From: Rubrivivax sp.
Lineage (GTDB): Bacteria > Pseudomonadota > Gammaproteobacteria > Burkholderiales > Burkholderiaceae_C
Direction of reading: 5' to 3'
Assembly: GCA_027484825.1 (NCBI GenBank)
Contig: JAIXSE010000016.1
Location: 310,001-374,000, forward strand
DNA: 64,000 nucleotides
How positions within the stretch are numbered: the first letter of the stretch is position 1; each line of letters begins with the position of its first letter. Positions 49,217 through 60,207 of the stretch are shown piece after piece. The position numbers were made by a program, and so were the translations under genes. A model generated the notes under the pieces. The model made no database searches, had not been told where the DNA came from, and saw only the letters and a list, made by a program, of their open reading frames with translations.

Positions 49217-50089
49217 TTAACGCGTGTTGAGTGAGAGAGGCGGGTAGACCCAGTTGGGGTCGGACGCCTTCATGAGCCGAACCCTTTCCTCATACAGCGA
49301 TTCCTCCATGGACCGGTACGCCGCCCATTGCCCTTTCTGCACCGATTCCAAGACCCGATTCCATTGCTCTTTAAAGGCCGGATGGTCGTCGATGGAGAAC
49401 GGCGGGCTGCCCTCAAACCCCGTGCGCGTCGCGATGAGTGAGTTCAGGGCATGCCGGAGTTGATAGAGCTCCGAGGCATTCGCAAAGAGGACCGATTCTT
49501 CTTTGCCAATGAGGCATCGATCCAGATCGGACCCCTTGCGCTGACTCATCTGCCGCAGGAGTTGCTCCGCTCGTTCGAATGCGGGAAATCGGTCGGCAAC
49601 GCCCAGGCGGGTTGCTAACGCCCGCGTGCCTTGGATCGTGTCCTGAAGTTCCCCGCAGCGCTGGCTGAGCCGAGCCTCAGCGTTTTCTCGAATCTCCCGG
49701 ATCATCGCATTGACTTGTGCGGACCTTTGCTTGACCGTGGAGGCGTGCTGGGCCGTGAACGGCGGGGGCGGCATGTTGGCAGGGAGCCCCAGCCGGCCAG
49801 TGACCAAGTCCGGAGCTACGTCCGCCAGAAAGGAGCGATCGGCCAGCGCGCGGCAATGCTGCAGCCTGTTCGATGCCTGCTCCCGCGGAAGATTGACACT
49901 TGGATCGTCGGACTGAACCAAGCGCATCAGCTGTTGTGCCTTCGTGAAGGTGTCCTGAATGTCCCTCATCAGGGCCTGGCGTTCCCTGGGGGGCAGGGGT
50001 TGCTGTTGGGCGTGCTGGGCGCCGCTGGCGGCAGAAGTGGCGCCGATTGAACTGGCGCGGTTCATGGGGTGCATGGAAGGAGGCGGCAA
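49217..50089 (-). CDS. Unknown protein, paralog of the next upstream gene; candidate effector
   Basis: This 290-residue protein is soluble and helical, with no signal peptide. The first 35 residues are Ser/Gln/Pro/Ala-rich (MNRASSIGATSAASGAQHAQ), resembling the disordered secretion signals of type III effectors. The body aligns by eye with the neighbour at 50162: DDPSVNLPREQASNRL with NDPASRLDPATQASMV, NMPPPPFTAQHAS with DTPPPAFSSHHRD, and FKEQWNRVLESVQKGQWAAY with YHERWTGMIALLEKDQLASF. I know no family for it. Composition is less GC-rich than the flanks. Function is unknown. Confidence 0.65.
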   Translation of the reverse strand: MPPPSMHPMNRASSIGATSAASGAQHAQQQPLPPRERQALMRDIQDTFTKAQQLMRLVQSDDPSVNLPREQASNRLQHCRALADRSFLADVAPDLVTGRLGLPANMPPPPFTAQHASTVKQRSAQVNAMIREIRENAEARLSQRCGELQDTIQGTRALATRLGVADRFPAFERAEQLLRQMSQRKGSDLDRCLIGKEESVLFANASELYQLRHALNSLIATRTGFEGSPPFSIDDHPAFKEQWNRVLESVQKGQWAAYRSMEESLYEERVRLMKASDPNWVYPPLSLNTR

Positions 50090-50161: not shown

Positions 50162-51082
50162 TCATTCGGACTCGGGCTTCCACCCAGGGTCTTGCTTTTC
50201 AAAGTGGGCATCCCCGCCGGGCATCGGGCTGTATGACGCCAGCGAGGCCTGATGCAGCAGATCGGCCTGCCACTGCCGCATGGCGCTGAGCTCACGCCGG
50301 AATGACGCCAGCTGATCCTTCTCCAGCAGGGCGATCATGCCGGTCCAGCGCTCGTGGTAACGCGGTTGATTCTGCTGCGACAAATCGGTCAGGTTGCCGC
50401 TGCGTCCTCGGCGCAGGCTCATGAGCGCCTCCACTGCCTCGCGGGTGTCCTTCAGGCTGACCGGTTTTCGGGGCGTGTTGAGCCAGGCGTCGTACTTGGC
50501 AATTCGGCAGCCCTCCCCATCGTGGGCGGTGGGCCGTTGCCGCACGTTTCGAAGCAGCTCTCTCGCGTGGACGCAGGCGGGAGGGTTGCAGGTCGCCGGC
50601 AGGCGGGCCAGCAGCGAGTTGATCTCGATCAGCTCATTCTCAACAGGCTGCATGAGGATCCGGAGCTTGGCGTCCGCCATGGCGGAACACTCCTTGGCCA
50701 CGGCCGAGACCGCTGCGGCGCGGTCAAGCGCTTCATCCCTGTGATGACTGCTGAACGCGGGAGGCGGCGTATCGGCGGGGGGAGGCTTCAGGCCATCGCC
50801 CACGGCGGGCCACACGTCCCGCAGGTAGTCGGTGTCGGCAGCCTGCCAGCAGCGTGACACCATCGATGCCTGGGTCGCGGGATCCAGCCGGGATGCCGGG
50901 TCGTTGGACCGGAGGAACGCGATCAGGGTGTGGATGCGCCGCACCGTGGTGCCGACCAGGTCGATCAGGGGCCTGGCTTCTGTGGCGGGTAGCAACTGCG
51001 CTGGAGCGGCTGGACCGGTGGTGTTCGACACCGAGCAAGCGCTGGAAAACTGGCCGGGGAGGCGATGCATGACGAAATCCAA
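50162..51082 (-). CDS. Unknown protein, paralog of the next downstream gene; candidate effector
   Basis: This 306-residue soluble, mostly helical protein is the tandem paralog of the gene ending at 49217; both share the DPxxxL...PPPxF...W(N/T)xx(L/I) pattern in the same order. It contains extra Cys residues (CNPPACVHARELL) not seen in the paralog. A Met four codons in (51070) is an alternative start. The two genes are in the same orientation, 72 bases apart. I saw no plant-inducible-type box in the upstream DNA, and no secretion-system gene is in the window. Function is unknown. Confidence 0.65.
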   Translation of the reverse strand: MDFVMHRLPGQFSSACSVSNTTGPAAPAQLLPATEARPLIDLVGTTVRRIHTLIAFLRSNDPASRLDPATQASMVSRCWQAADTDYLRDVWPAVGDGLKPPPADTPPPAFSSHHRDEALDRAAAVSAVAKECSAMADAKLRILMQPVENELIEINSLLARLPATCNPPACVHARELLRNVRQRPTAHDGEGCRIAKYDAWLNTPRKPVSLKDTREAVEALMSLRRGRSGNLTDLSQQNQPRYHERWTGMIALLEKDQLASFRRELSAMRQWQADLLHQASLASYSPMPGGDAHFEKQDPGWKPESE

Positions 51083-51150: not shown

Positions 51151-51230
51151 GCTGTCCGGTCCTGTCCGGCCTGGTCCGGCGTTGTCCGGCGTTGTCCGCC
51201 ACTGTCCATCCCAGTGTCCGCGGACACTGG
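51151..51230. promoter_or_regulatory. Candidate enhancer: six 10-bp phased repeats plus a 20-bp palindrome
   Basis: Six consecutive 10-base units from 51151 to 51210 each have (T/G)GTCC at the same position; five read TGTCC. They are followed at once by CCAGTGTCCGCGGACACTGG (51211-51230), a perfect palindrome containing TGTCC and GGACA. The block ends 62 bases before a sigma-54 promoter, where an NtrC-type activator would bind. An inverted GGACA-N8-TGTCC pair follows at 51317-51334. Confidence 0.8.
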
Positions 51231-51292
51231 CCAGAGCTCTCCGCTCATCGCCAAGTCCTTGAATTCAAACAGATTCTGATCCGTTTGCGACA

Positions 51293-51307
51293 TGGCACGG
51301 CCTTTGC
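51293..51307 (+). promoter_or_regulatory. Sigma-54 (RpoN) promoter of the export operon
   Basis: TGGCAC (51293-51298), five bases, then TTGC (51304-51307) match the -24/-12 consensus exactly, including the GG and GC dinucleotides at the correct spacing. Transcription would start near 51319, about 30 bases before the adaptor ATG. The operon encodes an NtrC-family activator. Confidence 0.85.
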
Positions 51308-51349
51308 GATCGTCTTGGACAGTCTCACTTGTCCTCCCTCCAAGACGCC

Positions 51350-52633
51350 ATGATCCGCGACACCTCCGGCCAAGACCGTCCCCTCACGCCTGCTTCCACC
51401 GTCTGGTCCCGCCACCGCCGCCTGCTGCTGGCCGGCGGTGTGATCGGCGTGGGCGCCCTGGTCAGTGCGACCGCCTTGCCCGCCGTGAAGCGGATGGTGA
51501 CGGGCGGGGCCTCGGTCAGTGAGCAGCGCCTGGGCCTGGCGACGGTCGAGGTCGGGCCGCTGGTGCGGGACATTGCCGGTGAAGGCAAGGTCGTGGCCGC
51601 CATGAGCCCGACGGTCTATGCGCTGCACGGCGGCAACCTCGTGCTGCGCGTCAAGGCGGGCGACAAGGTCACCCAGGGCCAGCTCCTCGGCGAGATCGAC
51701 AGCCCCGACCTGCGCGCCCGTCTGGCCCAGGAGCAGAGCAATGCCGACGCGCTGCGCACGGAGCTGCTGCGCGCCGAAGTGGACGGTCGTGAACAACGCG
51801 CTGCCTTGGGGAGCACGCTGGAAAGCGCCACCATCGACCTGCAGACGGCCCGCAACGACCTGGAGCGGCAGACCAAGGCTTTTGAGGCAGGTGCCGTGGC
51901 CGGCATGCAGGTCGAGAAGGCCCGGGACGCGATGGAGAAGGCCCGCATCACCCAGGCCCATGCCCAGGCGGGGATCGGCCTGAAGGACGACAGCCTGAAG
52001 TTCGAGCGCCAGGCCCGGCAGCAGGCCTTGCAGCGTCAGTTGCTGCTGGTGCAGGACCTGCGCCGCCAGATCGAGGAGCTGCAACTGCGCTCGCCGGTCA
52101 ATGGACAGGTCGGGCAACTGCTGGTGGCGGAGCGGGCCAATGTGGCGGCCGGTGCCGGTCTGCTCACGGTGGTGGACCTGACCTCCCTGGAAGTGCAGAT
52201 GCAGGTGGCCGAGAGTTTTGCGCGAGACCTGGCCATCGGCATGCCCGGCGAGATCTCCGGCAATGGCCGACAGTTCCGCGCGCTGGTCAGCTCGGTCTCA
52301 CCCGAGGTGGTCAATGGCGAGGTTGCCGCGCGGCTGCGTTTTGAGGGCGACATGCCTGCGCAGTTGCGGCAGAACCAGCGCCTGTCGGTGCGGGTGCTGC
52401 TGGACCGCCGCGACAAGGTCGTCACCGTCAGCCGCGGCAGCTTTGTGGAGGAGGGCGGCGGGCGCTTCGCCTATGTCGTTCAGGACGGTCAGGCCGTGCG
52501 TCGCGCCGTGAAGCTGGGCGCGCAGAGCCTGTCCAAGGTTGAAGTCCTGGAAGGTCTCAAGCCCGGCGACCAGGTGGTGATCTCCGGCGCGCAGGCCTTC
52601 AATGGCGCCGAGCAGGTCACGCTGTCGCGTTGA
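51350..52633 (+). CDS. Periplasmic adaptor (HlyD/MacA-type) of the export operon
   Basis: The ATG at 51350 is preferred over a TTG at 51329, which would lie only about ten bases from the predicted transcript start. The 427-residue protein has one N-terminal membrane helix (LLLAGGVIGVGALVSATALP), then a lipoyl half (VYALHGGNLVLRVKAGDKVTQGQLLGEID) and a long coiled-coil hairpin (residues about 115-225). The second lipoyl half (LRSPVNGQVGQLLVAERANV) and a beta-barrel/membrane-proximal end (GLKPGDQVVISGAQAFNGAEQV) complete it. It would link the ABC permeases to the outer membrane channel encoded in the same operon. It is the first gene after the sigma-54 promoter. Confidence 0.92.
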   Translation: MIRDTSGQDRPLTPASTVWSRHRRLLLAGGVIGVGALVSATALPAVKRMVTGGASVSEQRLGLATVEVGPLVRDIAGEGKVVAAMSPTVYALHGGNLVLRVKAGDKVTQGQLLGEIDSPDLRARLAQEQSNADALRTELLRAEVDGREQRAALGSTLESATIDLQTARNDLERQTKAFEAGAVAGMQVEKARDAMEKARITQAHAQAGIGLKDDSLKFERQARQQALQRQLLLVQDLRRQIEELQLRSPVNGQVGQLLVAERANVAAGAGLLTVVDLTSLEVQMQVAESFARDLAIGMPGEISGNGRQFRALVSSVSPEVVNGEVAARLRFEGDMPAQLRQNQRLSVRVLLDRRDKVVTVSRGSFVEEGGGRFAYVVQDGQAVRRAVKLGAQSLSKVEVLEGLKPGDQVVISGAQAFNGAEQVTLSR

Positions 52634-52726
52634 AGCGCCGGCCGATTCGAACGCTGACGGCCCCCGCCCGCACCTCCCCATATTCCCCAACCCAGTCACC
52701 CACCCAGTCACCCACCCGAGAAGCCC

Positions 52727-53443
52727 ATGCTCAAGATGCAATCGCTCTCCAAGGTCTACCGGACCGAAATGATCGAGACCTACGCCCTGCGCGACTTCAA
52801 CCTTGAAGTCCGCGCCGGTGAATTCGTGGCGGTGACCGGCCCGTCCGGCTCCGGCAAGACCACCTTCCTCACCATCGCCGGCCTGCTGGAGTCGTTCAGC
52901 GGCGGCCGCTACGAGCTCGACGGCGTGGACGTCAGCCACATGAATGACGACCAGCGCTCCCGCATGCGCAATGAAAAGATCGGCTTCATCTTCCAGGCCT
53001 TCAACCTCATCCCCGATCTCAACCTGCTGGACAACATCGAGGTGCCGCTGCGGTATCGCGGCATGAAGGCGGCCGAGCGACAGCGACGGGCGCGAGAGGC
53101 GCTGGCGCGGGTGGGCCTGTCGGCGCGAGAGCGGCACTATCCGGCGGAACTCTCCGGCGGGCAGCAGCAGCGGGTGGCCATTGCACGGGCCCTGGCCGGC
53201 GAGCCGCGCCTGCTGCTGGCGGACGAGCCCACCGGCAACCTGGACAGCAGCATGGCCCGCAGCGTGATGGAGCTGCTGGAGGAGCTGCATCGCGACGGCG
53301 CCACCATCGTGATGGTCACCCACGACCCTCAACTGGCCGCGCGAGCGCAGCGCAACGTGCATGTGATTGACGGACAGGTGATGGACATCGCGGCCCAGCT
53401 GCATCTGGACGCTTCCCCGGTGCGCAGCACCACGCCGGCGTGA
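52727..53443 (+). CDS. ABC transporter ATP-binding protein (MacB/LolD type)
   Basis: This 238-residue ATPase has Walker A GPSGSGKT (38-45), signature LSGGQ (142-146) and Walker B LLLADEP, followed by TGNLD and the switch His in MVTHD. The sequence [23 protein letters not shown] is characteristic of the MacB/LolD/FtsE-like mechanotransmission family. It powers the two FtsX-type permeases encoded downstream. In MacB itself ATPase and permease are fused; here they are separate. A short direct repeat (CCCAGTCACCCA twice) lies in the gap before it. Confidence 0.94.
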
Positions 53444-53451
53444 GGGCCGTG

Positions 53452-54849
53452 ATGAGGACGCTTGTTCCCCACGTACTGCGAGGCCGACTGGTCGGAGGAT
53501 CGAGGCGGACGTCGTCGCCGGCTTCCTTGTTGTCTTCGCGCTTGGCATCGGTCAAGGCATCGTTCTCGGCCCTGGCCGTGCTGACCCTGTGCGCCGGCTG
53601 CTGTCTGCCCGCCGCGGCCCACGCCGAAGATCTGCTGGACATCTACGACCTGGCCCGTCGCCATGACCCCACCCTGGCCATGGCCCGGTCGGTGCAGGGT
53701 GAGCAGACCGAGGTCGCCCGTCAGGCGCGGGCGGCACTGCTGCCGCAATGGTCCGCCCAGTATGCGGAGCTGCGCTACCAGGCCGATGGCAGCCGCGAGC
53801 ACCAGCTCACCCACAGCCTGAGTCAGGTCCTGCTGGACCTGGGCAAGCTGCACACCCTGGACGCCGCCACCACCGGCGCTCATGCGGAAGACGCCCGGCT
53901 GCAGGCCGCGCAGGCCGATCTGTGCGCGCGGGTGGCCACGGCCTATTTCGGGGTGCTGTCCGCACAGGCCAGCCTGGGCACCACGCTGGCCGTGGAAGAT
54001 GCCTACCGCCAGCAGGTGGAGCAGGCCCAGGCCCGCTTCGACGCCAAGCTCGTCGCCGCACAGGACGTGGAGCAGGCGCGCGCCTACTACGAGCTGGCCC
54101 GCGTCAACACCGCCCAGGCGCAGGAGTCGCTGGCCGATGCCCGACAGGCGCTGGCCCAGATCACCGGCCAGCCCCCCGGCGAGCTGCGTCCGCTCGCACC
54201 GGAGCTGCCCATGACCGCGCCCGAGCCGTCCGACCCGCAGGCCTGGGTCGATCAGGCCCTGCGCGACAACCCCAGCCTGCGCGCAGGTGCCCTGGACCTG
54301 ACCGCCAGCGAGCAGCGCGTGGCCGCCGCTGGCGCCGCGCACCTGCCCACTCTCAGCGTGGGCCTGGACGGTGAGCGACGCGCCGGTTCGGGCGTGTCCG
54401 CGCCGGACGCGCGCTACACCACCACCGTGGGCTTGCGCCTGAACATTCCGCTCTTCGCCGGCGGCGCGGTCGAGTCGCAAAAGCGGCAAGCCGTCTACCA
54501 GCGCGAGCATCAGAAGGACGACCTGGAAGCGGCGCGCCGATCGGTGATCCGCAACACGCAGGGCTACTACCAGGCGGTGGTGTCGTCGCTGAGCCAGATG
54601 CGCACCACCCAGGCGGCCATGACCGCCGCTGAAAAATCCCTGGCCTCCACCCGCAGCGGCCTGGACCTGGGCGCCCGCAGCATGACCGATCTGCTGCTGG
54701 CCATCCAGACGCACAGCAATGCGCGCAGTGCCTGGGATCAGGCCCGCCACCGCCATGTACTGGCCAAGCTGCTGCTACAGCAGGCCGCCGGCCATCTGGG
54801 CGAGCCGCAACTGGCCGCCGTCAACCTCCTGCTCATCCCGGGACCGTGA
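53452..54849 (+). CDS. TolC-family outer membrane channel of the export operon
   Basis: I favour the ATG at 53452, preceded by GAGGG; a GTG at 53440 overlapping the ATPase stop is the alternative. The signal peptide is long, with the hydrophobic core SALAVLTLCAGCCLPAAAHA. The mature protein has the two TolC repeats (DLLDIYDLARRHDPTLAMAR; LYDLARR-type start; RLNIPLFAGGAVESQKRQA, the usual second-repeat strand). No lipobox is used. It forms the exit duct for the ABC exporter. The gene lies in the middle of the operon, between ATPase and permeases, an order not typical of macAB-tolC. Confidence 0.9.
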   Translation: MRTLVPHVLRGRLVGGSRRTSSPASLLSSRLASVKASFSALAVLTLCAGCCLPAAAHAEDLLDIYDLARRHDPTLAMARSVQGEQTEVARQARAALLPQWSAQYAELRYQADGSREHQLTHSLSQVLLDLGKLHTLDAATTGAHAEDARLQAAQADLCARVATAYFGVLSAQASLGTTLAVEDAYRQQVEQAQARFDAKLVAAQDVEQARAYYELARVNTAQAQESLADARQALAQITGQPPGELRPLAPELPMTAPEPSDPQAWVDQALRDNPSLRAGALDLTASEQRVAAAGAAHLPTLSVGLDGERRAGSGVSAPDARYTTTVGLRLNIPLFAGGAVESQKRQAVYQREHQKDDLEAARRSVIRNTQGYYQAVVSSLSQMRTTQAAMTAAEKSLASTRSGLDLGARSMTDLLLAIQTHSNARSAWDQARHRHVLAKLLLQQAAGHLGEPQLAAVNLLLIPGP

Positions 54850-56162
54850 ACATGCTGACCTACTATCTTGAACTCGGCCTGCGCAGCTTGCGGGCTCATC
54901 GTGGCCTGACCGCCCTGATGCTGCTGTCACTGGCCATGGGCGTGGCCGCGTGCATGACCACGCTGACGGTGTTTCATGTGCTGTCCGGCGATCCAATTCC
55001 CGAAAAGAGCGCACGGCTGTTCAATGTGCAGCTGGATGCCGAATCGAGGCAGGGCTATCAGCCCGGCGGTGAGCCTACGCAGCAGCTGACACGCCTGGAT
55101 GCCGAGGCCCTGCTGCGCGACAAGCGCGCCGTGCGACAGGTGATGATGACCGGCGCCAACATCGTGGTCGACCCGGAGGGATCCGGGCAGCCGGGGCAGT
55201 CGCCGTTCTTCGCACCGGCGCGATATGCCAGCGCTGATTTCTTCGACATGTTCGACGTGCCCTTCCAGTACGGGCGGGGTTGGACGCCGGCTGACGATGG
55301 GTCCGAAGCGCGTGTGGTGGTGATCTCCCGGCAGCTCAATGAACAGCTGTTCGGCGGCGCCGACAGCCGGGGCCGCACCCTGCGCCTGCGGGACCAGGAC
55401 TTCACCGTCATCGGCGTGCTCCAGCACTGGCGGCCGGCCCCACACTTCTTCGACCTCAGCCAGGGCGCGTATGCCGAAGCTGCAGACGTTTATCTGCCCC
55501 TGGCCACGTCCTATGCGTTGAAGCTGGGCAGTTCCGGCAGCATGAACTGCTGGGGCAGCAACAACGCCGATCCTCGCGCCCTGGGGGCCAGCTGTGCCTG
55601 GCTGCAGTACTGGGTGCAACTGGACACGGACGCTCAGCGCCGCGCCTATCTCGACTACCTCGCGCAGTATTCGGACCTCCAGCGCCAGGCCGGGCGATTC
55701 GAGCGACCGGCCAACCCGCGGCTGCGTCCGGTGATGGAGTGGCTGTCGGTGCGCAAGGTTGTGCCCAGCGACTTCCGCTTGCAGGTCTGGCTGGCCTTTG
55801 GCTTCCTGGTGGTGTGCCTGACCAACACCGTCGGTCTGCTGCTCGCCAAATGCCTGCGCCGCAGCGGTGAAATCGCCGTGCGCCGCGCCCTGGGCGCACC
55901 GCGTCGCCAGATCTTCCTGCAGTTCCTGGTGGAAGCCGGCAGCTTGGGGCTCACCGGCGGCCTGCTCGGGCTGGGGCTGACCTGGGTCGCCTTGTGGATC
56001 GTTCGGATGAATCCCGCGCCCTACGCCGCCCTGGCGAAGATGGACTGGCAGATGCTGGCGCTGACGCTGGTGCTGTCGCTCGTCGCCAGCCTGCTGGCGG
56101 GGCTGCTGCCGGCCTGGCGAGCCTGCCAGATCACGCCCGCCCTGCAACTGAAAACACAATGA
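54846..56162 (+). CDS. ABC transporter permease 1 (MacB/FtsX type)
   Basis: This 438-residue protein begins with a GTG overlapping the channel gene stop (GTGA); an ATG at 54852 is also possible. One N-terminal helix (LTALMLLSLAMGVAACMTTL) is followed by a large periplasmic MacB-type core domain (residues about 45-300). Three C-terminal helices carry the FtsX motif EIAVRRALGAPRRQIFLQFLVEAG. The extended Cys- and Trp-containing periplasmic part (GSMNCWGSNNADPRALGASC) may recognise a substrate. It would pair with permease 2 and the ATPase in a mechanotransmission exporter. Confidence 0.9.
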   Translation: MNMLTYYLELGLRSLRAHRGLTALMLLSLAMGVAACMTTLTVFHVLSGDPIPEKSARLFNVQLDAESRQGYQPGGEPTQQLTRLDAEALLRDKRAVRQVMMTGANIVVDPEGSGQPGQSPFFAPARYASADFFDMFDVPFQYGRGWTPADDGSEARVVVISRQLNEQLFGGADSRGRTLRLRDQDFTVIGVLQHWRPAPHFFDLSQGAYAEAADVYLPLATSYALKLGSSGSMNCWGSNNADPRALGASCAWLQYWVQLDTDAQRRAYLDYLAQYSDLQRQAGRFERPANPRLRPVMEWLSVRKVVPSDFRLQVWLAFGFLVVCLTNTVGLLLAKCLRRSGEIAVRRALGAPRRQIFLQFLVEAGSLGLTGGLLGLGLTWVALWIVRMNPAPYAALAKMDWQMLALTLVLSLVASLLAGLLPAWRACQITPALQLKTQ

Positions 56163-56171
56163 GGTGACCCG

Positions 56172-57392
56172 ATGGACATTCTTCCCATCCTCGTAACGCT
56201 CAAGCGGCACAAGACCGCCGCCAGCCTCATCGTGCTGCAGATGGCGCTGACCTGCGCCATTGTCTGCAACGCGCTCTTCCTCATCAGCCAGCGCATCGAC
56301 CGCATCGGTCAGCCCTCCGGGTTGGACGAGGACCGGCTGGTGATGCTGCAGATCGCCAGCGTGGCCCGCACCGGCAATGAAGAAGCGCAGACCCAGACGG
56401 ATCTGCAGACCCTGCGCGAGGTGCCCGGCGTGCAGTCGGCCACCATCGTCAACCAGGTGGTCTACGCCCCGGCCTCCACCTACACCAGCGTCCGCACCCA
56501 GCCGGGGGAGGGAGAGCCCAATCTGGTGGCCTCCAACTATTACGCGGCCGAGAACGCGATTGCCACGATGGGGCTGCGTCTGATCGCAGGCCGGGATTTC
56601 GCGCCCGGTGAATTCGTCGGCACTGCGGCAGCCAATGAAGAGAACCCGGTCATTCCCGCCATCCTCATCAACAAGGAGATGGCCCAGCAGCTCTTTCCGG
56701 GCGAATCGCCGCTGGGCAAGTCGCTGTATGTCTATGGCAATGTGCCGCATCAGGTGGTGGGTGTGGTGGAGCGGCTGACCTCAACGACCCCGGGCGCCAA
56801 TCTGGACCTGGGCCAGAGTTCACTGATCCTGCCGATTCGGCCCAGCTATCGGGGCGGCGTGTTTCTGCTGCGCACCGAGCCCGGTCAGCGGGAGGCCGTG
56901 CTCAAGGCTGCGGCTGAGAAGCTGCTGCACAACAGCCCGGGCGCCAAGCGGCTGGTCCGGCAGCAGCAACTGCTGACCGACCTGCGCAGCGCCTACTACC
57001 GCCAGGACCGATCCATGATCCAGCTGCTGGCCGCAGTCTGCGTGGCGCTGCTGGTGGTGACGGCCTTCGGCATCATCGGGCTGGGCAGCTTCTGGGTGCA
57101 GCAGCGCACCCGCATGATTGGCACGCGCCGCGCTCTGGGGGCCACGCGGGGGCAGATCCTGCGCTACTTCCAGACGGAGAACCTGCTGCTGTCCACGATC
57201 GGCATCGCGCTGGGCATGGCAGGGGCGTATGGCATCAGCCTGTTGCTGATGCGGCAGTATGAGCTGCCGCCGCTGCCGGCGGTGTATCTGCCAGTGGGCG
57301 CGGTGGTGCTGTGGGGGCTGGGGCAACTGGCCGTGCTGGCACCTGCGCGCCGGGCCGCTGCGCTGCCGCCGGTGGTAGCGCTGCGGGGCTGA
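56172..57392 (+). CDS. ABC transporter permease 2 (MacB/FtsX type)
   Basis: This 406-residue protein has the same plan as permease 1: an N-terminal helix (TAASLIVLQMALTCAIVCNALFLI region), a periplasmic domain, and three C-terminal helices with RMIGTRRALGATRGQILRYFQTENLLL. The two permeases differ clearly in their periplasmic domains, so the transporter is a heterodimer. It starts nine bases after the preceding stop. It ends before a 10-bp repeat and the response-regulator gene. Confidence 0.9.
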   Translation: MDILPILVTLKRHKTAASLIVLQMALTCAIVCNALFLISQRIDRIGQPSGLDEDRLVMLQIASVARTGNEEAQTQTDLQTLREVPGVQSATIVNQVVYAPASTYTSVRTQPGEGEPNLVASNYYAAENAIATMGLRLIAGRDFAPGEFVGTAAANEENPVIPAILINKEMAQQLFPGESPLGKSLYVYGNVPHQVVGVVERLTSTTPGANLDLGQSSLILPIRPSYRGGVFLLRTEPGQREAVLKAAAEKLLHNSPGAKRLVRQQQLLTDLRSAYYRQDRSMIQLLAAVCVALLVVTAFGIIGLGSFWVQQRTRMIGTRRALGATRGQILRYFQTENLLLSTIGIALGMAGAYGISLLLMRQYELPPLPAVYLPVGAVVLWGLGQLAVLAPARRAAALPPVVALRG

Positions 57393-57410
57393 GTCGTTGC
57401 CCCGCACCCT

Positions 57411-57447
57411 CGGACCTTGCACGACCTTGCACGACCCTGCACGACCC
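57411..57447. repeat. 10-bp tandem repeat between permease 2 and the response regulator
   Basis: Blocks reading CGGACCTTGC, ACGACCTTGC, ACGACCCTGC and ACGACCC follow one another at a 10-base period. They lie between the permease stop and the regulator start, 35 bases before the latter. Confidence 0.75.
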
Positions 57448-57481
57448 GGTGTCGGACCCTCGCTCGATTATTCTCACGCCG

Positions 57482-58828
57482 ATGCGCACTGTCCTGATCA
57501 TTGATGACCACCCTGCGGTCGGGGAAGCCCTGACCCTGCTGCTGTCCTTGCACGAGATGGAGCCGCTGCATGCGCTGACGCCGGCCCAGGGGCTGGCGCT
57601 GCTGGCGCAGCGACGCATCGACCTGGTGATCCAGGACATGAACTTCAGTGCGGACACCACCTCGGGCGAAGAGGGCCGCACGCTGTTTCACCAGATCCGG
57701 CAGGCGCATCCGGACCTGCCGGTCATCCTGCTGACGGCCTGGACGCAGCTGGAGCAGGCCGTGGCGCTGGTGAAGGCCGGTGCGGCCGACTATCTGGCCA
57801 AACCCTGGGACGATGCCAAGCTGCTGGCGACGGTGGAGAACCTGCTGGAGCTGGGGGAGAGCCACCAGGCGCTGCGACAGGCCCGGCAGGACCATCAGCA
57901 GCGGCTGGCGGCGCTGACGCAGCGCTATCGGCTCGATGGCATGGTGGTGGCCTCGCCCGCGTTGCTGCGCTGCCTGGAGCTGGCCTGTCAGGTGGCGCGG
58001 TCGCCGGCGCCGGTGCTCATCACCGGGCCCAACGGCAGCGGCAAGGAGCGGGTGGCGGCCATCGTGCATGCCAATTCCGCAGTGGCCAGCGGGCCGTTCG
58101 TGGCCATCAACTGCGGCGCCTTGCCTGGGGATCTGATCGAAGCAGAGCTCTTTGGCTCGGAAAGCGGCGCCTACACCGGCGCGGCCCGTGCACGGGAAGG
58201 GCGCTTCGAGACGGCCGATGGTGGCACGCTGTTCCTGGACGAGATCGGCAACCTGCCGCTGGCCGGGCAGGTCAAGCTGCTGCGGGTGCTGGAGACCGGC
58301 CGGTTCGAGCGGCTGGGGTCCAGTCGGACACGGCAGACGCAGGTGCGGGTGCTCTCGGCCACCAATGCGGACCTTCGCGCCATGGTGGCGGCCGGTACAT
58401 TCCGTGAAGACCTGTACTACCGGCTCAATGTCATCGAGATCTCGCTGCCCGGGCTGGCGGACCGGCCGCAGGACATTCTGCCGCTGGCGGAGCATTTCCT
58501 GGCCGGCCGTGCGCGGCTGGGCGAGGGCGCCCGCGACGCGCTGCTGGCGCATGCCTGGCCGGGCAATGTGCGGGAGCTGAAGAACGTGATGGAGCGTGCT
58601 GCGCTGCTGGCTCCGGGGCAGGGCAGGGATCGCAGCATCACCGAGCAGGACCTTGGGCTGCCCGCGGCAGTGGCGCCGGCGAGCCGTTCGCTGGATGAGC
58701 CCAGCCGCGAAGCCGTGATGGCCGCGCTGGAAGCGGCTTCGGGCGTGGTGAGCCGGGCGGCGCAGGCCTTGGGCTTGTCCCGACAGGCCCTGTACCGGCG
58801 CATGGAGCGCTACGGGCTGGACGTCTGA
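57482..58828 (+). CDS. Sigma-54-dependent response regulator (NtrC family)
   Basis: The ATG at 57482 gives 448 residues in the standard order. The receiver (1-125) has acidic D8-D9, phospho-acceptor D52 and the K in LAKPWD. The AAA+ domain has Walker A GPNGSGKE (182-189), the sigma-54 contact loop GAYTGA (229-234, a common variant of GAFTGA) and Walker B LFLDEIG. A C-terminal Fis-type helix-turn-helix follows ([20 protein letters not shown]). It should activate a sigma-54 promoter when phosphorylated by the kinase encoded next. A perfect sigma-54 promoter heads its own operon, implying positive feedback. Confidence 0.94.
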
Positions 58829-60207
58829 TGCGCACGGGGCGCCGCCTGACCGGGCGATATTCCCTCAAGCTGCGCCTGATGCTGTTCCTGCTGGGCGCGT
58901 CGCTGCTGTCGATCGGCACACATGCGAGCTGGACCTTGTGGCCCTGGCCGCTGCTGGCGCCGTGGATGGGCCTGCGTGCACCGGCCCCCTGGAGCGCCAC
59001 GGCTTTGGTACTGACGGCGCTGGTGGTGTTGCCCGGCATCTGGGGGCTGGCGCATGTGCTGCTGGCGCCGCTCACGCGGCTGATCCGTGCCCTGGAGGGC
59101 ACGGTGCTGAGCTACCGCGACGGGGACTTCAGCAGCGTCATCACCGCACAGGCGCCCACCGGCTTGTCGGAGCTGGAGGAACTGCTGCGGCTGCATCATG
59201 AGCTGGGCCATGCCTTGCGGGAGCAGCGGCGGCAACTGGCGCAGCGGGAGCTGCTGCTGGATACGGTGGTGCAGAACACGCCGGTGGCGCTGGTGCTCAC
59301 CGATCTGCAGGACCGGATTGCCTATGCGAATCTGGCGGCGCGGCAACTGCTGGATGAAGGGCGGAGCCTGTCCGGGCGCTCACTGGCGGACGTATTGGCC
59401 CGAGCGCCCGACGACTTGCGGGCGGCCGTGGCCCAGCCTCGTGACGGGCTGTTCAGCGTGATGCTGGACCAGCAGGAGGAACGGTTTCACCTGTCGGTGC
59501 GGGACTTCCAGTTGCAGGGGCAGCCGCACCGTCTGCGCTTGATGCGGCGCATGACGCGGGAGCTGTCGCGCCAAGAGGTGGCGAGCTGGAAGCGGGTGAT
59601 CCGGGTGATGAGCCATGAGCTGAACAACTCGCTGGCACCGATCTCGTCATTGGCGCACAGCGGCGCGGAGCTGGCGCGTCGCGGGCAGATGGAGCGCATT
59701 CCCGGCGTGTTTGCCAGCATCGGGGAGCGGGCCGCGCATCTGCATGCCTTCCTCGCCGGATATGCGAGTGTGGCCAAGCTGCCAGCACCGGTGCTGACGG
59801 TAGTGGACTGGGCGCATGTGCTGGAAGGGCTGGCGGTGCACTACCGGTTTGCGCTGGAGGGCCCGGTGCCGACGCAACCGGCACGCATGGATGCGGCGCA
59901 GATGGAGCAGGCCCTGATCAACCTGCTGAAGAATGCGCATGAATCCGGCAGCGCGCCGGAGGCGGTGAGCCTGAAAGTGGAAGCGCTGCGGGACGAGTGG
60001 CGGGTGGAAGTGGCGGACCGCGGACCGGGCATGAACGAGGCGCAGCTGTCGCAGGCACTGCTGCCGTTTTATTCGACCAAACGCAGCGGGACGGGCCTGG
60101 GTCTGGCGCTGGCGCGGGAGATTGCGGAGGCGCATGGCGGGCGCATCGTCATCGGGAATCGGGATGGCGGGGGGCTGTGGGTGGCGTTGATGATTCCGCG
60201 GGGGTAG
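58828..60207 (+). CDS. Membrane sensor histidine kinase of the export operon
   Basis: It starts on the last base of the regulator stop (TGATG). The 459-residue protein has two membrane helices (residues about 14-33 and 56-80) with only a short loop of about 25 residues between them, so it probably senses within or close to the membrane. A HAMP-like segment and a PAS domain (about 145-245) follow. The transmitter has H263 in VMSHELNNSLAPI and an ATPase with NLLKNAHESG and GTGLGLALAREI. The ELNNSLAPI H-box is the NtrY-like subtype usually paired with NtrC regulators. The intramembrane-type sensor fits detection of a membrane-active compound (inference). Confidence 0.93.
   Translation: MRTGRRLTGRYSLKLRLMLFLLGASLLSIGTHASWTLWPWPLLAPWMGLRAPAPWSATALVLTALVVLPGIWGLAHVLLAPLTRLIRALEGTVLSYRDGDFSSVITAQAPTGLSELEELLRLHHELGHALREQRRQLAQRELLLDTVVQNTPVALVLTDLQDRIAYANLAARQLLDEGRSLSGRSLADVLARAPDDLRAAVAQPRDGLFSVMLDQQEERFHLSVRDFQLQGQPHRLRLMRRMTRELSRQEVASWKRVIRVMSHELNNSLAPISSLAHSGAELARRGQMERIPGVFASIGERAAHLHAFLAGYASVAKLPAPVLTVVDWAHVLEGLAVHYRFALEGPVPTQPARMDAAQMEQALINLLKNAHESGSAPEAVSLKVEALRDEWRVEVADRGPGMNEAQLSQALLPFYSTKRSGTGLGLALAREIAEAHGGRIVIGNRDGGGLWVALMIPRG

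Follow-up and report, generated by a model that had tools for sequence, protein, structure and literature searches.

The window analysed here is a 64,000-nucleotide stretch of a Rubrivivax sp. genome (G000:C32:310001-374000; genome size 5.66 Mb), and its subject in this report is a seven-gene exporter operon with the putative sigma-54 promoter region in front of it. The closest named relatives by identity of one of its permeases, permease A, are Roseateles depolymerans (92%) and Roseateles terrae (86%), in a scan of relatives' genomes from which very near records may be omitted. A first-pass annotation, made from the sequence alone, had proposed genes for an adaptor, an ATPase, a channel, two permeases, a regulator and a kinase. 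All seven open reading frames (ORFs) were confirmed on the + strand at 51350-60207, and Pfam/NCBIfam-type family searches bore out the proposed functions (Table 1). The ATPase and channel, channel and permease A, and regulator and kinase ORFs overlap by 1-4 bases; larger gaps separate adaptor from ATPase and permease B from regulator. A consensus scan of the + strand inside the operon, larger gaps included, found no sigma-70-like site or terminator. The start codon of the channel ORF is uncertain, a signal-peptide-like stretch beginning about 35 residues in. The ORF list holds frames of at least 100 amino acids, so shorter precursor genes would not appear in it.

Table 1. Features of the exporter locus, in window coordinates (IHF, integration host factor; ABC, ATP-binding cassette)
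Feature	Position	Strand	Basis or remarks
TGTCC half-site array, putative regulator-binding	51153..51210	+	starts 51153, 51163, 51183, 51193, 51203
Perfect 20-bp palindrome CCAGTGTCCGCGGACACTGG, core TGTCCGCGGACA, putative main enhancer site	51211..51230	.	longest perfect palindrome in the window
IHF-like site ATTCAAGGACTTG	51252..51264	-	one mismatch to WATCAANNNNTTR; between enhancer and promoter
Predicted -24/-12 (sigma-54) promoter TGGCACG-N4-TTGCG = TGGCACGGCCTTTGCG	51293..51308	+	pattern scan, position, conservation
Periplasmic adaptor (membrane fusion protein, HlyD/RND-type)	51350..52633	+	conserved tail MIRDTSGQDR precedes single membrane helix
Stand-alone ABC ATPase, MacB/LolD type (ABC_tran)	52727..53443	+	top NCBIfam match DarD, below cut-off
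TolC-family outer-membrane channel (OEP/TolC)	53440..54849	+	TIGR01844 above cut-off
Permease A (MacB_PCD + FtsX)	54846..56162	+	4 membrane helices, MacB-like periplasmic domain
Permease B (FtsX)	56172..57392	+	4 membrane helices, MacB-like fold
NtrC-type response regulator (Response_reg + Sigma54_activat + HTH_8)	57482..58828	+	family searches, alignment
Sensor histidine kinase (PAS_8 + HATPase_c)	58828..60207	+	two membrane helices, short loop, H-box SHELNNSLAP

The predicted -24/-12 promoter ends 41 bases ahead of the adaptor ATG at 51350, a start that is kept in relatives (MIRDTS.QDR). The first-pass annotation had placed a consensus-perfect promoter about 40 bases before the first gene; the position was right and the site exists, and the description was slightly overstated, since 11 of the 12 scored positions match and the final base is G rather than A/T. 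With at most two mismatches the -24/-12 pattern occurs 32 times in the window against 43.8 expected, therefore the pattern on its own proves nothing. As far as sequence can tell, this promoter is distinguished by its position and conservation rather than by its pattern.

Upstream of the promoter, at 51153-51264, lies a putative enhancer that was absent from the earlier account. It consists, in order, of the half-site array, the palindrome and the IHF-like site. The half-sites are spaced by 10 base pairs (bp), with GGTCC in register at 51173. Six TGTCC starts, the palindrome's included, fall within 65 bp, compared with three at most in 50 dinucleotide shuffles of the window. GlrR sites likewise use TGTC/GACA half-sites. 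The palindrome alone is weak evidence: nine 20-bp palindromes were found in 50 shuffled windows. For the IHF-like site we take WATCAANNNNTTR to be the IHF consensus. The exact palindrome 13-mer, GTGTCCGCGGACA, is found at a single place in the 5.66-Mb genome (both strands of one site). This single occurrence led us to reject the idea that the exact palindrome serves a wide regulon. Allowing one mismatch adds 14 further matches, and the total of 16 is close to the 13 of a backward control. The host genome carries two rpoN genes.

Scanning genome contigs with permease A gave 70 loci, which span Roseateles and its kin, Lysobacteraceae, Rhodanobacteraceae, a Massilia, a Sinimarinibacterium and others. 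The upstream regions of the window and of the 57 loci with a usable adaptor start (n = 58) were compared with 2,900 random stretches from the same loci. A -24/-12 site matching at least 10 of 12 positions within 150 bp of the adaptor start was found in 55 of the 58 regions and in 1.9% of the random stretches; at 11 of 12 or better, the figures were 44/58 and 0.7%. A palindrome with at most one mismatch was present in 32 of 58 (0.5% in the control) and looser inverted half-sites in 49 of 58 (5.1%). Of 56 regions scored for the IHF-like site, 45 had one with no more than a single mismatch (1.6% of the random stretches). A chance -24/-12 match was thus rejected, as position and conservation exceed those of random stretches of the same loci. 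The distance from palindrome to promoter falls into three groups, 71-72 bp (19 of 32), 58-60 bp (9) and 50-51 bp (4). These are not clean multiples of a helical turn, and we do not argue for exact helical phasing of the enhancer. One relative (L041) departs from the 10-bp spacing: in the 250 bp ahead of its adaptor start, a long series of TGTCCGG repeats, 7 bp each, takes the place of the usual half-site array.

The switch and the pump are linked across genomes. The regulator and kinase genes lie downstream in 48 of the 50 loci that have permease B and at least 4.5 kb of downstream sequence, and of the 57 loci whose sequence extends 5 kb or more ahead of the first permease A, 55 have adaptor and ATPase genes. 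L070 and L094 are the two that fail in both counts. The first-pass annotation had named, as evidence against itself, homologous operons that consistently lack both the regulator and the -24/-12 site. The opposite was found, and its central claim, a sigma-54 exporter operon that is self-contained and includes a regulator and a kinase of its own, is supported by gene content, promoter conservation and this linkage. It had also treated the channel gene inside the operon as a distinguishing feature. The gene is present in the window, but a matching channel was found in only 19 of the same 57 loci, and it is no trait of the family. In seven Pseudoxanthomonas loci (L062, L064, L067, L069, L071, L076 and L097) an extra, diverged permease-B-like match (26-30% identity) sits between permease B and the regulator.

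Among 60 related genomes, permease A was found at E < 1e-170 in 18, the next best match being 1.3e-16. These 18 are the host's own genome, all 15 of 15 same-genus relatives, G022 and G028. The pattern palindrome-N45-74-TGGCAY occurs in the same 18 genomes and in none of the other 42. Seventeen of the 18 have it on the permease's strand, 3-4 kb upstream; the exception is G010, whose pattern and permease fall on separate contigs. A second pattern match was seen elsewhere in G008, and the backward control pattern gave one match (G012). A survey of 369 genomes of the class (permease cut-off E <= 1e-60, at most four candidates scored per genome) found the permease in 10, the pattern in 7 and both, 2-4 kb apart, in 4; G435 has one extra pattern site. 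The order of genes is also found in Pseudoalteromonas xiamenensis, in which adaptor, ATPase, two permeases, regulator and kinase follow each other as in the window, without the channel, and permease A is 37-38% identical. Its upstream region is A+T-rich, and TGTCCGCGGACA and TTGGCAC precede the adaptor. The -12 part, TTGGTA, is a poor match, and scanning with one mismatch allowed missed it. A second sigma-54 regulator gene (L137:5333-6646) stands immediately before the adaptor gene of this species. Two other Pseudoalteromonas loci, nearly identical to each other, have no regulator or kinase match within their 9-kb flanks and no palindrome.

The permeases belong with MacB. Profile comparison with solved structures gave MacB as the nearest relative of permease A (E = 7e-26) and of permease B (E = 5.5e-30), and the predicted models, with pLDDT (predicted local distance difference test) scores of 91.8 and 91.0, matched the MacB structure 5gko best (template-modelling score on the query 0.67 for each predicted permease). 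Permease B has no Pfam MacB_PCD match, but it matches MacB in profile and fold. Each protein thus has the makeup of a MacB-type, or mechanotransmission, permease, namely a four-helix FtsX-type permease with a MacB-like periplasmic domain. The Lol permeases are weaker profile matches to permease A (LolF 5e-7, LolC 1.2e-5, LolE 3.9e-4), and BceB is no more than a distant match, seen with permease B. The separate, non-identical permeases of the first-pass annotation are indeed two distinct ORFs. The N-terminal tail of the adaptor (RDT..QD; MIRDTS.QDR at window 51350-51379) is kept in 57 of 58 adaptors, ahead of the membrane helix, and is possibly a docking motif.

The regulator has a receiver, an AAA+ domain with a GAYTGA loop and a Fis-type helix-turn-helix. 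The phospho-acceptor Asp, the GA(Y/F)TGA loop and the receiver signature MNF-x2-DTTSG-x-EG are kept in 12 aligned regulators. At the level of sequence the locus has what sigma-54 control by a bacterial enhancer-binding protein calls for: a -24/-12 site, an upstream enhancer and an AAA+ activator with a GAxTGA loop. The H-box SHELNN[SA]LAP is present in all 53 kinases extracted. Of the two membrane helices of the window kinase, one is clear and the other weaker. By a crude estimate, the stretch between their hydrophobic cores is 29 residues in the window, 8-33 residues in a set of 20 kinases that includes the window's and is mostly of Roseateles type, and 5-13 residues in 33 others, mostly of Lysobacteraceae. 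Of the kinase claimed earlier, with two helices and almost no periplasmic loop, the near absence of a loop fits these 33 relatives better than the window's own protein.

These data are consistent with our postulation, which we regard as rather probable, that the locus is a private, positively autoregulated sigma-54 circuit which produces a tripartite MacB-type exporter when needed, its likely cargo being peptides located outside the inner membrane. The trigger of the membrane kinase, little of which lies outside the membrane, would be an envelope-active compound, in all likelihood an extracytoplasmic peptide, acting on the kinase within the membrane or by way of the working transporter. The kinase would phosphorylate the NtrC-type regulator, which would gather on the half-site array and on the palindrome, whose centre lies 72 bp ahead of the -24 element. 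A bend at the IHF-like site may then allow the regulator to meet RNA polymerase-sigma-54 at the single promoter. All seven genes would be transcribed together, and as the regulator and kinase are among them the circuit could amplify itself. The ATPase would power a permease A/B pair by mechanotransmission, and cargo taken from the periplasm would pass through the adaptor to the TolC-type channel. Sigma-54 promoters are silent without their activator, which makes it plausible that an envelope pump should have a switch that stays firmly off and, once on, amplifies itself.

The genes that adjoin or interrupt the operon in relatives give some clues to cargo. The commonest gene between permeases and regulator encodes a DUF885 protein, at six distinct loci (L074, L081, L087, L090, L098 and L116, the array of Rhodanobacter sp. 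A1T4; L116 is the same locus as L085, L120 as L090 and L121 as L089). Pfam gives no function for this family. A role as a metallopeptidase was considered and dropped as evidence, because the six copies have HE[GA][VI]PGHH and no HExxH. A DUF4440/SnoaL-like gene takes the same place at four loci (L044, L048, L063 and L080). Between permease pairs inside tandem arrays we found an S33-type alpha/beta hydrolase (L083 and L089) and a CPBP/Rce1-like gene (L085). In Stenotrophomonas sp. Ste86 (L070:7269-16149), an ATPase-permease copy without regulator or kinase adjoins a cluster of the RiPP type (ribosomally synthesized and post-translationally modified peptide) that combines a radical-SAM maturase resembling XyeB, with a score below cut-off, with a peptide beta-hydroxylase domain that does pass its cut-off and a C39 peptidase exporter. 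This context and the hydrolase/protease-like array genes point to peptides weakly and only indirectly, in a few loci. The membrane-active inducer, such as a peptide antibiotic, that was suggested earlier gains weak circumstantial context from them and is best kept as a suggestion. Beside the operon in the window, two minus-strand genes at 49217-50089 and 50162-51082 are divergent from it and look alike by eye; neither matched a Pfam family above its cut-off.

Several observations weigh against an autoregulated peptide exporter. Two or more palindrome mismatches were counted in 24 of the 56 scored sequences, many of them from Lysobacteraceae. L077 and L078 have no promoter within 150 bp of the start, although L077 has a 12/12 site 297 bp away, and the promoter of L088 scores 9/12, below the threshold of 10/12. 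Because the loci are related, the conservation counts are not independent samples. In the survey of 369 genomes only 4 of the 10 permease genomes have the exact pattern, six lacking it, and G154, G241 and G247 carry the pattern without such a permease. The PAS domain of the kinase allows a cytoplasmic signal. DUF885 by itself is no pointer to peptides, as it has neither a Pfam function nor HExxH. Conservation of the permease pair in all 15 same-genus relatives examined is also compatible with a housekeeping envelope function.

This last point leads to handling of envelope lipids or lipoproteins, as in LolCDE or envelope maintenance, induced by membrane damage and with antimicrobial resistance as a side effect. 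The thin evidence for peptides, the Lol permeases among the solved relatives and the presence in 15 of 15 same-genus relatives speak for it; but the same operon holds an adaptor and a TolC-type channel, and MacB is best in both sequence and fold, so we regard it as unlikely. LolCDE itself was rejected, as the LolC, LolE and LolD equivalog scores are below cut-off and MacB matches better. Dedicated secretion of a peptide of the cell's own, with the kinase sensing build-up of this product rather than an attacking compound, seems equally improbable. The ATPase has DarD as its nearest NCBIfam model and the adaptor matches DarC, both below cut-off, and the L070 copy adjoins the RiPP-type cluster. 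However, 10 of the 11 Roseateles-group loci L031-L041 have no extra gene of at least 90 amino acids inside the operon (the exception, L040, has one of 188, and the L034 locus is truncated at its start), maturases around the window having had no systematic search.

A further proposal concerns only how the signal is read, and it is a sub-hypothesis of the autoregulated exporter circuit, not its opposite. In flux sensing of the BceAB-BceRS kind, described for the Bce system in the available text of PMC6978683, a kinase without a sensor of its own would read the state of the permease pair. The kinase gene is in the same locus in 48 of 50 cases, and the helices of the 33 mostly Lysobacteraceae kinases are separated by a short stretch of 5-13 residues. 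Against this stand the PAS domain, the 29 residues estimated for the window and the distance of BceB as a match; flux sensing is possible though somewhat doubtful.

The circuit can be placed among known systems. DarBCD exports darobactin, and the ATPase and adaptor of the window match DarD and DarC; the window's system differs in having its own regulator and kinase, and a darobactin exporter proper was rejected as the curated cut-offs of DarB, DarC and DarD are not reached. To our knowledge, BceR is not a sigma-54 activator, and the Bce system has neither adaptor nor channel. What the locus shares with peptide-antibiotic detoxification by BceAB-BceRS of Bacillus is an FtsX-type transporter that would signal to its own kinase and regulator (PMC6978683, in its available text). 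Permeases A and B resemble the N-terminal and C-terminal halves, respectively, of ADOP permeases (TIGR03434), scoring 181.9 and 175.9 bits against a cut-off of 622.3; unlike ADOP, in which one polypeptide holds a duplicated permease, the window's permease is split into two proteins and comes with an ATPase. With MacAB-TolC it shares the adaptor, a MacB-fold permease with periplasmic domain and the TolC-type channel. It differs in its separate ATPase, its two distinct permeases and its own sigma-54 promoter, regulator and kinase. A classical macAB-tolC was rejected, since MacAB-TolC in the strict sense has a fused ATPase-permease homodimer, the MacB equivalog cut-off is not reached, and the ATPase (52727-53443) and permeases (54846-57392) are separate ORFs. 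Split permeases are therefore not new: the accessible part of a MacB review describes ATPase and permease as fused or separate and the permeases as homo- or heterodimeric (PMC5985334).

The first-pass annotation had called sigma-54 control of such a pump unusual. It is no longer without precedent. A 2025 survey reported sigma-54 promoters enriched before COG0577/FtsX-family permeases in gamma-Proteobacteria, Opitutia and Bacteroidia and, in the text available, calls this the first such evidence (PMC12316311); sigma-54 control of the COG0577 family is therefore already known as a statistic. The permeases of that survey share with ours a sigma-54 promoter before the same permease family. The accessible portion of the paper gives no operon anatomy, enhancer, autoregulation or tandem permeases and does not mention 'Lysobacter' or 'Rhodanobacter'. 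A literature search of a limited collection found no papers on this operon, its enhancer or the tandem arrays. The operon is real, conserved and probably self-regulated, and its anatomy varies an already known kind.

The array form in relatives is the most unusual result, and more interesting than the window's operon. At least two permease pairs are present in 11 of the 70 loci, L092 not being counted as one gene is split between frames. Four Rhodanobacteraceae genomes, examined on longer stretches (L115+L116, L117+L118, L119+L120 and L121+L122), have 6 to 9 tandem permease A/B pairs on one strand: nine in Rhodanobacter sp. A1T4 and in Oleiagrimonas sp. C23AA, seven in Rhodanobacter sp. C03 and six in R. 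spathiphylli. Each of the four arrays has one exact palindrome, one + strand promoter-pattern match, one adaptor and one ATPase. The regulator follows the permeases in all four and the kinase in three; in A1T4 the stretch ends around the regulator and does not extend to a kinase. In a tree of 68 permease A proteins, in which two long branches are of unsure placement, array members group across different genomes, and the permease classes therefore look old. The window's permease A falls in a group (support 100/97) with single-pair operons, both L043 copies, two of L055 and one of G062. Over aligned rows, permease A paralogs from the same array share 41-47% of residues in the periplasmic part vs. 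58-67% in the membrane part (five arrays), and permease B paralogs 30-32% vs. 58-62% (four arrays).

We suggest tentatively that in the Rhodanobacteraceae arrays one enhancer-promoter, one adaptor and one ATPase may serve 6-9 old, diverged permease pairs, so that one switch would deploy a panel of exporters with differing cargo specificities and a shared motor and exit duct, the window being the simple form. We do not put the suggestion higher because the greater periplasmic divergence holds for all aligned permeases (mean column identity, periplasmic vs. membrane: 58% vs. 75% for A, 49% vs. 75% for B) and not for arrays alone.

In print, we found the link between sigma-54 and MacB-type exporters only as the statistical enrichment of PMC12316311, as far as its available text goes. 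The locus offers a complete, testable circuit of sensor, activator, enhancer, promoter and pump for a sigma-54-controlled MacB-type exporter, and the tandem arrays found in related genomes would make it possible to ask what part of such a MacB-type pump selects the cargo.

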